From an uncultured bacterium (GTDB lineage: Bacteria > Cyanobacteriota > Vampirovibrionia > Gastranaerophilales > Gastranaerophilaceae), in assembly GCA_947073645.1 (NCBI GenBank), contig CAMTMK010000002.1:1-64000 (forward strand): 64,000 bases of DNA, written 5' to 3'. The position numbers were made by a program, and so were the translations under genes. This document shows positions 1,980 through 37,752 of the stretch, piece by piece. The notes below the pieces were generated by a model. The model saw only the letters and a program-made list of their open reading frames with translations. It searched no databases and was not told where the DNA came from. The stretch's first letter is position 1. The number at the start of each line of letters is the position of its first letter.

Positions 1980-2252
1980 ATGAACAAAGAAGAATTAGTA
2001 AAAGAAGTATCAAAAAAAGCAAAAGTTTCTCAAAAAGCTACTGCTGACATCATTGCTGCAACATTAGAAACAATTGAAAAAACAGTTTCTAAAGGTAAAA
2101 AAGTTACTTTAGTTGGTTTTGGTACATTCGAACCACGTAAAAGAGCTGCTAGAACAGGTAGAAACCCTCAAACAGGTGCTCCTTTGAAAATCGCTGCTAA
2201 AACAGTTCCTGCTTTCTCAGCTGGTAAAAAATTCAAAGAATTAGTAAAATAG
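1980..2252 (+). CDS. hup: HU-family DNA-binding protein
   Basis: A 90-residue histone-like protein that bends and compacts DNA. It has the full HU/IHF fold, including the signature GFGTFEPRKRAARTGRNPQTG spanning the beta-arm at residues 46-66, and the C-terminal PAFSAGKKFKELV. It is a single-gene unit with its own sigma-70 promoter, a consensus ribosome binding site and a downstream intrinsic terminator. Codon use is that of a highly expressed gene. The stop codon TAG forms the first three bases of a 3' module that is repeated after the annexin-like gene at 53207. Confidence 0.97.
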   Translation: MNKEELVKEVSKKAKVSQKATADIIAATLETIEKTVSKGKKVTLVGFGTFEPRKRAARTGRNPQTGAPLKIAAKTVPAFSAGKKFKELVK

Positions 2253-2341
2253 CGGATTGCGAGCTGAGGGCAAAGGCTGGTGTCGGCTTGCGTTGAGCAA
2301 GACGAGCAGAGCCTAGACCCGTTAAATGCGAGTAACCAAGA
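2250..2341 (+). repeat. 3'-UTR structured module, copy 1 (after hup)
   Basis: It starts at the hup stop codon with TAGCGGATTGCGAGCT, identical to the first 16 bases after the annexin-like gene (53207-53222), continues RAGGGC, and ends with the related segment AGACCCGTTAAATGCGAG. Between GGGC and GACCC this copy has an extra arm built from AGGCT/AGCCT, GTC/GAC and CTTGC/GCAAG pairs. In the other copy the arm is a short loop. A conserved core with a length-variable arm suggests a structured RNA element. Confidence 0.55.
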
Positions 2342-2386
2342 CGGAGCGTAGCCGCCTAGTCGCATTAGGTTTTGTATAAACTTAAA
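2342..2386 (+). repeat. Palindromic dispersed element, copy A
   Basis: GGAGCGTAGCC followed by CATTAGGTTTTGTATAAAC. It matches the CGTAGCC...CACATTGRRTTTTG family seen at 11138, 17241, 35067 and 53368. It lies between the hup 3' module and the hup terminator. Confidence 0.5.
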
Positions 2387-2415: not shown

Positions 2416-2444
2416 GTTAATTTAATATACAGAAAGGAGAGAGT

Positions 2445-3124
2445 ATGAAATATTTTAATCAAAATGTCGGGGGGGGGGCAATTCTGTAGCTTTTACACTC
2501 TCTGAAGTTTTAATTACGTTGGGGATTATTGGAGTTGTTGTCTCTTTGACTATGCCCAATTTGATTGAAAAATATCAAAAAAAAGTCGCCGTATCAGCTT
2601 TGAAAACAGCTTATTCGATTTTTTCGCAAGCTGTTGCGCGTTCTGTACAAGATAATGGTGATATTTCAGATTGGGAGTTATCGTATTCGGATATGGCGCC
2701 GAAATATATTTTTCCGTATGTCGAGACAGTAGGAATTGTAAAAAAATATGGATTGCGTAATTTAGGTACAGGGGAAACAGCTTATATACACTGGGGTGGT
2801 TGGACTAGCGGCAAAATTTATGCAATGAAAAACGGGATGACTTATAGTATGATTTATGACCATGAAGGTATTTACTTAACAGTAGACATAAATGGTACAA
2901 AAGGTCCTAATCGTATGGGGCGTGACGGATTTGTTTTTGAAATTTTACCGAGCAAGAATACTTTAATACTTTCCGGTGCAAATAGAACAAGGAATGATGT
3001 TGAAAATTATATTTTTGGCGGATGTAAAAGATTCCCTAACAATAGTGCGTATTACTCGGGTCAATTTTGTGGAGCATTAATTATGCTTGATGGTTGGGAG
3101 ATTAAGGACAATTATCCTTGGTAA
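2445..3124 (+). CDS. Type IV prepilin-like protein, frameshifted at a G10 tract (phase OFF)
   Basis: ATG 2445 follows a good ribosome binding site (AAAGGAGA). The frame enters a run of ten Gs (2469-2478) and stops at TAG 2487. The downstream frame, open from about 2486 to 3124, starts with the class III prepilin signature AFTLSEVLITLGIIGVV and continues with DINGTKGPNRMGRD and a C-terminal LDGWEI. These features are shared with the prepilin at 17193-17945. One extra G (11) or two fewer (8) would join the start to the prepilin frame as a single protein of about 226 residues. As sequenced it is not translated from this ATG, although TTG at 2519 could give an inactive fragment. A homopolymer sequencing error is an alternative. 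Confidence 0.8.
2469..2478 (+). repeat. G10 homopolymer tract (putative contingency tract)
   Basis: Ten consecutive Gs in context C-G10-CA, inside an AT-rich gene start. The same C-G10-CA context occurs at 17226-17238. Confidence 0.75.
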
Positions 3125-3629
3125 TTTGTAAAAATGTTATAAACTTATCACCGTATTTTTTCTGTTTGACAATTTCAAAACCTTTAAAATCAACGTCTGT
3201 AACATGTTCCAGTATTACTATTCCGTTTGTAATATCTTTTACTGCATTCAGGCTCTCCTCATAAATTCCTGAAAAATAAGGCGGGTCAATATAAATTACG
3301 TTAAATTTTTCGGTTAATTTAGCTTTTAAGCTGTCGCAGATAATGAGTTTTGGCGGATTATCGAATTTTTTGAAGTTAGATTTTATTATGTTTGCAACTT
3401 TTGGATTTTTTTCAATTGATGTTACGTTTACAAATCCGCGTGATAGGGCTTCCAGTCCCATAATTCCTGAACCAGCATACATATCTAGAAATGAACTTTC
3501 GTAAAAATTAACCATTGCTTGCAAAGTATTAAAGACGCTCATCCTAACTTTCGAAAGTGTCGGACGGGTAATCTTTTCGTCCGGTGCTGTTATTTTTCTG
3601 CCTTTAAACTTACCTGCTGTAATAATCAT
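3102..3629 (-). CDS. rsmD: 16S rRNA (guanine966-N2)-methyltransferase RsmD
   Basis: A 175-residue SAM-dependent methyltransferase that modifies G966 of 16S rRNA. The family's N-terminal GKFKGRKI and RPTLSKVRMSVFNTL are present. So are the SAM site FLDMYAGSGIMGLEALSRG (about residues 48-66) and the N6/N2-methylase catalytic motif DPPY near residue 115. The gene overlaps the end of the convergent prepilin gene by 23 bases. It is divergent from the FixC-like gene with only 43 bases between starts. TAAAAT lies six bases before the ATG, without a Shine-Dalgarno sequence. Confidence 0.93.
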   Translation of the reverse strand: MIITAGKFKGRKITAPDEKITRPTLSKVRMSVFNTLQAMVNFYESSFLDMYAGSGIMGLEALSRGFVNVTSIEKNPKVANIIKSNFKKFDNPPKLIICDSLKAKLTEKFNVIYIDPPYFSGIYEESLNAVKDITNGIVILEHVTDVDFKGFEIVKQKKYGDKFITFLQITKDNCP

Positions 3630-17192: not shown

Positions 17193-17945
17193 ATGAAAAA
17201 CCATGAAACATTATTAAAAACCTTCCGGGGGGGGGGCACTCGTAGCAAGCGTAGCCGCTTGACCCGCCACATTGGATTTTGTAAAAATTTTAAATGTGCA
17301 TTTACGTTAGCAGAGGTTTTGGTTACACTTGGAATTATTGGTGTTGTGTCTGCAATGACCTTGCCGACACTTGTTAAAAACCATCAGCGTCAGGTTTATG
17401 TAACCCAGTTGCAGAAGGTCGTAAATGAGTTGACTCAGGCAGCAGAGAGGGCAATTACTGATAATAATGCAGTTTCACTTTCTGAAACTGAATATAGAGA
17501 TCCTCAAGATGCTAAATTGTTAACTAGATATTTAAAAGTTACAAAAAATTGTTCTACAAATAGAGATAAATGCTTTGCTAGTGAATATAAAACTCTTACA
17601 GGTGAAGTTTTTTCTGGTTGGTATTGTGGCGGAAATTATTCTGCATCAGTAATTTTAGCAAGCGGGGCTTCTGTTTGTATATCGAGAAGTATGACTGATG
17701 GTCGTTATTTAGACGGAAGTATAAGACATGGTAATTCTATTTTATATATGGATGTTAATGGGCTGCAGGGTCCTAATATATTAGGCAGAGACTTGTTTTA
17801 TGCAGAGTTATATAGTGATGGTGTAGTTGGAGAAAGTCATAGTGGAGATTTATCTCAAGCTGACTGGTGTTTGAATAATGGAATGGGATATGGAGTAGGG
17901 TGTTTTTCTAAAATTGTTAGTGACGGTTGGAAAATGGATTATTAA
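17193..17945 (+). CDS. Type IV prepilin-like protein with an in-frame G10 tract (phase ON)
   Basis: A 250-residue prepilin-like protein. The class III signal AFTLAEVLVTLGIIGVVSAMT starts only near residue 36, after an unusually long basic leader. The leader contains a G10 tract (17227-17236, in frame here) and an in-frame copy of the dispersed palindromic element (17241-17290, encoding SKRSRLTRHIGFCKN). The globular part shows Cys pairs, MDVNGLQGPNILGRD and a C-terminal SDGWKM, matching the frameshifted paralogue at 2445. Prepilins of this type are processed by PilD-like peptidase and assembled by type IV pilus or type II secretion machinery. GGAGCAGG precedes the ATG. Confidence 0.85.
   Translation: MKNHETLLKTFRGGGTRSKRSRLTRHIGFCKNFKCAFTLAEVLVTLGIIGVVSAMTLPTLVKNHQRQVYVTQLQKVVNELTQAAERAITDNNAVSLSETEYRDPQDAKLLTRYLKVTKNCSTNRDKCFASEYKTLTGEVFSGWYCGGNYSASVILASGASVCISRSMTDGRYLDGSIRHGNSILYMDVNGLQGPNILGRDLFYAELYSDGVVGESHSGDLSQADWCLNNGMGYGVGCFSKIVSDGWKMDY
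17227..17236 (+). repeat. G10 homopolymer tract (putative contingency tract)
   Basis: Ten Gs in the same C-G10-CA context as 2469-2478. Here the reading frame continues into the prepilin. Loss or gain of one G would truncate it. Confidence 0.75.
17241..17290 (+). repeat. Palindromic dispersed element, copy B, read in frame
   Basis: AAGCG-TAGC-CGCTT hairpin followed by CCACATTGGATTTTGTAAAA, closely matching copy E (35067-35108). It lies within the prepilin coding leader. Confidence 0.6.
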
Positions 17946-18969: not shown

Positions 18970-19234
18970 TTTTTACCCTCTCTGACGATTTTGGTCGAAT
19001 TTTGTATTTATTGGTCAGTTGCTCGCTTTTGCTCGCTCCCATATTTTCTCCTTACATACTAATTATACCAGAAACAAATTATTATAACTTAATATTAAAT
19101 TGACTAAAAATCATGATTATCATACCGTAATAGATATAAGGAAACGGAGTGAATATCTCCGACTGCTGCCGCAGCCGTAAAAGTCGGAATACTTGTTGCA
19201 TTATCTACGTGCAGAATGGATATGTGAGGATTTA
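18970..19234. other. Intergenic region with divergent promoters and riboswitch
   Basis: The left part is the trpS leader, which carries the short direct repeat GCGAGC-AAAA-GCGAGC on the minus strand. The right part holds the cobalamin riboswitch-like leader of the cluster at 19235. Confidence 0.5.
19115..19225 (+). promoter_or_regulatory. Cobalamin riboswitch-like leader ahead of an unknown three-gene cluster
   Basis: It contains GGAGTGAATATCTCC, then CTG, and GCAGCCGTAAAAGTCGGAAT. This last 20-base core is identical in the leader of nrdD (37655-37752). These correspond to the conserved cobalamin-riboswitch segments GGTGAAA..TCC, CTG..CCGCARCCGTAA and GTCGGAAT. The element ends about 10 bases before the ATG at 19235, next to TGAGGA, so translational control is likely. 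Confidence 0.75.
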
Positions 19235-37654: not shown

Positions 37655-37752
37655 GATACTTTCGTAAGGAAAGCATGGGTGAAATTCCCACACTGGACCG
37701 CAGCCGTAAAAGTCGGAATGCTTATGAGAGTTAATGTTACCACGGAAATCTG
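37655..37752 (+). promoter_or_regulatory. Cobalamin riboswitch controlling nrdDG
   Basis: It has GGAAAGCATGGGTGAAATTC, CCACACTGG, and GCAGCCGTAAAAGTCGGAAT with GCTT closing against AAGC. These are the conserved cobalamin-aptamer segments. It ends next to the ribosome binding site TGGGAG before ATG 37765, suggesting translational repression by cobalamin. This fits a strategy in which B12-independent NrdD is made only when B12 (and thus a B12-dependent reductase) is limiting. Confidence 0.85.

Follow-up and report, generated by a model that had tools for sequence, protein, structure and literature searches.

A large and putatively phase-variable prepilin repertoire with a replication-linked G10 tract element in uncultured Gastranaerophilales

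In a 64,000-nucleotide stretch of DNA from an uncultured bacterium of the Gastranaerophilaceae (the window, positions 1 to 64,000 of contig CAMTMK010000002.1), a prepilin gene opens with a ribosome binding site and an ATG, runs into ten consecutive Gs and stops shortly after them, while the rest of the prepilin lies intact in another frame. Is such a gene dead, misread, recoded or switched? A preliminary description of this DNA had proposed the last of these, phase variation by slippage in the G tract. The features of the window that bear on the question are the following.

1980 to 2252, plus strand: gene for an HU-like DNA-binding protein, bordering the prepilin slot on the left
2385 to 2415, no strand assigned: probable terminator (an inverted repeat, then a T run) between the HU gene and the prepilin gene
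2431 to 2440, plus strand: ribosome binding site (Shine-Dalgarno) of the prepilin gene, sequence AGAAAGGAGA
2445 to 2468, plus strand: start codon and short leader MKYFNQNV, 5' of the tract
2466 to 2490, plus strand: tract element GTC-G10-CAATTCTGTAGC, one leading-strand copy of the genus-wide motif NTC-G10-CANTYYTNAGC
2469 to 2478, plus strand: G10 tract; the leader frame as sequenced stops at TAG 2487-2489 (OFF)
2492 to 3124, plus strand: prepilin body, from FTLSEVLITLGIIGVV to the stop, out of frame with ATG 2445
3102 to 3629, minus strand: RsmD-like methyltransferase gene, right border of the prepilin slot
17193 to 17945, plus strand: second prepilin gene of the window, N_methyl, with its tract in frame (ON); PF07963 and TIGR02532 passed
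17227 to 17236, plus strand: G10 tract of the second prepilin gene
17237 to 17297, plus strand: spacer from tract to prepilin with a REP-like repeat (AAGCGTAGCCGCTT palindrome), translated in frame

By inspection of the sequence, the first tract sits 24 nt past the ATG at 2445, and the prepilin frame (..SVAFTLSEVLITLGIIGVV.., open to TAA 3122-3124) is displaced by one base from the frame of that ATG. The layout given in the preliminary description was recovered in full, with an exact match for the good Shine-Dalgarno sequence, the ATG and ten Gs in place, the TAG ending the ATG frame and the open prepilin body at +1, and its frame arithmetic (ten Gs OFF, eleven or eight in frame) proved correct on recomputation. 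The prepilin N-terminal motif of this gene was recognised by eye; its match to PF07963 is weak (E 0.02), and matches to the ComGC and ComGE models fell under the cut-off. Both the N-terminal methylation/cleavage motif and the hydrophobic helix by which type IV prepilins and pseudopilins are recognised were found. An Rfam search of the leader gave no known structured RNA. Six G8 words occur in the window against 0.09 expected per window shuffle, which excludes a chance origin of its G runs; together with the run-length counts given below, this upholds the earlier view that so long a G run is unlikely unless maintained.

The HU and RsmD genes that border the slot adjoin each other in G010 and G012, without a prepilin between them, and in four other congeners the slot holds only distantly related prepilins (31-34% identical). 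Prepilin genes have been gained and lost between conserved neighbours elsewhere too: at five further loci aligned between the window's own genome (G000) and G010, the prepilin gene is missing from G010 although its neighbours are the same. A REP-like repeat (AAGCGTAGCCGCTTGACCCGCCACATTGGGTTTTG) is found between genes (window 2280-2365) and also translated in frame within prepilin leader spacers, at window 17237-17297 and in the spacers of L011, L014, L028 and L055. The window also contains two matches to the AdoCbl-II (cobalamin) riboswitch over the gathering score, at 19124-19202 and 37658-37731.

The genome that carries the window (G000; 1.71 Mb, 37 contigs, 99.8% complete) holds 67 runs of at least eight Gs, made up of 42 runs of 10, 10 of 11, nine of 9, four of 8 and two of 12. 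Exact G/C runs in 364 kb of its sequence number 2478, 432, 56 and 3 for lengths 3 to 6, fall to 0 at 7, 1 at 8 and 2 at 9, and rise to 23 at 10, and this bimodal distribution, near-absent at 7-8 and peaking at 10, marks the tracts as a separate, maintained class. Homopolymers beyond chance length in an ORF or promoter, one property of contingency loci, are thus present. Prepilin leaders hold 52 of the 67 tracts, with G on the coding strand in 30 and C in 22, and 52 of the genome's 75 N_methyl matches (E up to 0.5) carry a tract. The other 15 lie elsewhere, including in a glycosyltransferase-like ORF and a hexapeptide-transferase gene, classes typical of phase-variable loci; one of the 15, L018, was overlooked by the first assignment rule and is a prepilin-like gene whose motif is a variant. 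Congeners carry 0-176 tracts of at least nine Gs and other families of the order 0-6 per genome, the named relatives in this comparison being uncultured Gastranaerophilales/Melainabacteria MAGs. The original proposal, made for the G10 prepilin at 2445, understated the case, which extends to about 50 genes per genome across the genus.

At the glycosyltransferase-like ORF, two G10 tracts lie about 950 bp apart (L036; G000 C9:46506 and 47452), one at the end of the ORF and the other inside it, with C on its coding strand. The pair recurs at this location in G010 (L128), with lengths 10/11 and 10/10, and tract pairs of like spacing, possibly but not necessarily orthologous, are found in G026 and G019. 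Proteins with an in-frame tract near the N terminus are encoded at L052, L050 and L053 (G000 C15 and C14), and no Pfam family matched L050 or L052. Three tracts of G004 (L357, L358 and L359; C79 and C86) abut or lie within about 10 bases of N assembly gaps, and in several congeners a contig begins no more than some tens of bases from a tract, as though the assembly had broken at that point.

Reading frames were surveyed in 123 tract-bearing prepilin genes (53 from G000, 39 from G010, 14 from G026, 13 from G019 and 4 others), with starts assigned by rule as the ATG with the best Shine-Dalgarno sequence. Between tract and prepilin motif, the prepilin frame contains 0 stops in 2482 codons, compared to 254 in 2450 and 186 in 2393 for the two other frames, and stop-free spacers reach 417 and 454 nt. 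As assembled, 92 of these genes need +1 to join leader and prepilin, 19 are ON and 12 need −1, and the preference for +1 is alike in G-sense and C-sense genes. A change in tract length would thus toggle an otherwise intact frame, as at contingency loci. A few spacers, mainly in G019, G001 and G015, contain a possible second start, an in-frame ATG accompanied by a Shine-Dalgarno-like site. An upstream mini-ORF, 'M..GGGA(L/I)*', was rejected as the product because it is absent from C-sense genes and conservation is seen in the other frame instead.

Twelve orthologous pairs between G000 and G010 gave dN/dS values of 0.09-0.29, except for one outlier of 0.59 at low identity. Eleven of the twelve are OFF in both assemblies, and given their low ratios the OFF genes are, by this measure, under purifying selection and not dead. 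Tract lengths also differ among close relatives, as expected of contingency loci, the differences here being between species. Several of 17 orthologous tracts are unequal in length between G000 and G010, and for G004 and G027 (mostly 90-94% identical; species about 92%) three of eight paired tracts, with pairs set by synteny and flanks and partly by our judgement of synteny, differ by one G (9/10, 10/11 and 10/11), while none of the eight is interrupted. In the hexapeptide-transferase gene (L047:1501-1511, G000 C13), an in-frame G10 is present in G000 and G010, and the same codons of the orthologues (L326-L329) read AGAGGGACAGGA in G012 and G7 in G004 and G027. Aligning without indel to the tractless or shorter orthologue, this tract arose or decayed by substitution. 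Tracts therefore need not come as ready-made insertions, and such insertion was rejected as their sole origin.

Each sequence-level prediction by which the phase-variation proposal could be tested has held: the tract is maintained, the frame continues past it, OFF genes are under purifying selection, close orthologues differ by one base in tract length, and ON and OFF alleles stand side by side within one family. The tracts are best read as switches for translational phase variation by DNA slippage, an explanation that we consider quite probable. Each gene would start at its own ribosome binding site and be translated for 6-16 codons before reaching the G run, or a C run for genes on the opposite strand. 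With the tract at its usual 10, translation would stop just past the tract and no prepilin would be made. Gain of one base, or less often another change, at replication would join the leader to the prepilin frame, and a minority of cells would then make that pilin. Length changes would arise by slippage at replication and be frequent and reversible within the population, and the products would presumably reach the surface as pilins or pseudopilins. With some 50 such genes per genome, a population could come to contain many combinations of displayed pilins.

The tracts share a context, NTC-G10-CANTYYTNAGC, which the preliminary description, although right about the tract itself, had missed along with its replication polarity. 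Scores from a flank profile trained on G-sense prepilins exceeded those of random positions by 19.9 standard errors for C-sense prepilins and by 11.9 for non-prepilin tracts, with the signal confined to the G strand. All tracts of a contig share one direction, save where the origin lies, and on contig 1 of G010 the polarity flips between 259.6 and 297.9 kb, at the minimum of cumulative GC skew. Two genomes together supplied 727 kb of oriented sequence, in which the leading strand carries 45 G and 0 C tracts of 8 or more, compared to a bias of only about 60:40 for runs of 3-5. Since the leading strand of G000 was defined in this count by contig polarity, the independent test there is the sign of the skew, which agrees with tract polarity in 13 of 15 stretches of that genome (not counting C4, on which the polarity switches). 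Both the flank and the G strand are oriented with the replication fork, whatever the direction of the gene. A search of the open-access literature found no paper on phase variation in Gastranaerophilales or on such tract flanks, nor any account of fork polarity of tracts.

The complete leading-strand polarity with its flip at the origin, and flanks conserved in unrelated genes, would also suit an element that is primarily a replication or recombination site, like the pilE guanine-quadruplex or an FtsK-orienting sequence, driving exchange of leader/prepilin modules with the frame effect secondary. Module exchange is consistent with such a role. The spacer module is often swapped beside a conserved tract (lengths 194/56, 111/6 and 114/54), and one pair has had much of its prepilin body replaced as well. 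However, the frame is conserved almost without exception through the tract, and a three-layer intramolecular quadruplex needs more than G10, for which the tract is too short. Furthermore, G022 and G029 (L275-L304) do with almost no tracts despite their 128 and 96 prepilins, so the site cannot be essential; the loci examined there have ordinary MKK-GFTLAEVL leaders, and the switch is therefore an add-on, not part of the pilin. We regard a primary role in replication or recombination as possible but doubtful; it is compatible with phase variation, and the element could do both. G022 and G029 offer a natural comparison for a tract-specific factor; G013, G024 and G028 are likewise poor in tracts.

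Other sources of the tracts and their genes were considered and rejected. Despite gene gain and loss, no clear target duplication was seen at the junctions, as a mobile cassette would leave. The presence of reverse transcriptases, as in diversity-generating retroelements (DGR), does not track tract number, with none in G000 and one or two in the tract-poor G022, G028 and G029. Loss of mismatch repair raises slippage in some lineages, and there is no sign of it here, as MutS1 is present in G000 and in all congeners but one, itself tract-poor. The exact motif was absent from viral_contigs, which speaks weakly against carriage by phages (one 19-base pattern, zero matches).

The main rival to phase variation is programmed recoding, by which G10 or C10 would be a fixed slippery site where some RNA polymerases or ribosomes shift by one. 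A −1 ribosomal shift or +1 transcript slippage would then give low, constitutive prepilin in every cell with the DNA unchanged. Such recoding would suit the narrow mode at 10 and the consistent rule by which 92 of 123 genes need exactly +1, and also OFF/OFF orthologues under selection. Paramyxovirus P-gene mRNA editing, in which a short conserved context and a homopolymer yield +1 products, offers an analogy of mechanism only; it acts on RNA and follows transcription, whereas the tract motif follows replication and tracks the replication strand, not the transcribed one. Moreover, the +1 rule holds for C10 and G10 mRNA alike, although ribosome and polymerase behave differently on each, and natural alleles of 8, 9, 11, 12 and 13 exist. 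Recoding is on this evidence improbable. That the genes are pseudogenes, or the tracts sequencing or assembly errors in homopolymers, is highly implausible, for although the assembled frame is broken in most genes, dN/dS is far below 1, the spacers have zero stops, and the same tract position and flanks recur in assemblies whose names point to several separate projects.

For translational phase variation, we hypothesize that the fixed flanks may set the rate, direction or length control of slippage at the fork, or alternatively that the tract element may also serve recombination. A tentative extension, which we hold to be less likely than the switch itself, is that the motif on the leading strand is a dedicated, replication-oriented element at which a putative factor holds about ten Gs and lets them slip mostly by +1 at the fork. 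The tracts would then form a genome-wide switch with length control, placed mainly before prepilins, and would not be ordinary unstable repeats.

In Neisseria, pilus and surface genes such as pilC are known to vary in phase through poly-G/C tracts, and there, too, G/C tracts near gene starts alter pilus-related expression. It concerns one or a few pilus genes in Neisseria, and about 50 prepilin structural genes per genome here. The Campylobacter phasome consists of mononucleotide G tracts, mostly in ORFs, with frame-based ON/OFF switching, and C. jejuni has 18-39 phase-variable genes (PMC6321876). The tracts described here are alike in lying mostly in ORFs, in numbering tens per genome and in their frame-based states. 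In Campylobacter, however, C occupies the coding strand in only 5% of ORF tracts (PMC6321876), compared to 22 of 52 prepilins in G000, and the fork-following polarity, the conserved flanking motif and the single dominant target family set the present tracts apart. Gonococcal pilE/pilS is reported to combine pilin antigenic variation with a G-quadruplex (PMC3547852, PMC10094033). With that system the present one shares a pilin repertoire, a guanine-rich cis element and module exchange beside it. It differs in that no single locus is expressed at the side of silent copies, each gene having its own ribosome binding site and start codon, and in a G10 situated within the reading frame and distinct from the pilE quadruplex sequence. 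Among the prepilin tract genes we found neither one expressed locus with promoterless silent copies, since they carry their own ribosome binding site and ATG, nor an intramolecular quadruplex sequence upstream of a promoter, the tract being an uninterrupted G10 within the reading frame.

We read these observations, from genome sequence, as a large prepilin repertoire that is probably phase-variable and carries a replication-linked tract element. Most of what is known of phase variation comes from cultured pathogens. In these uncultured commensals of the animal gut, non-photosynthetic relatives of cyanobacteria, about 50 genes per genome look like switchable pilins, with up to about 176 tracts in some species. 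If true, this would explain surface variation against phages, hosts or neighbours, and the fork polarity and fixed flanks provide a natural, many-copy test of how replication direction and context set homopolymer slippage.
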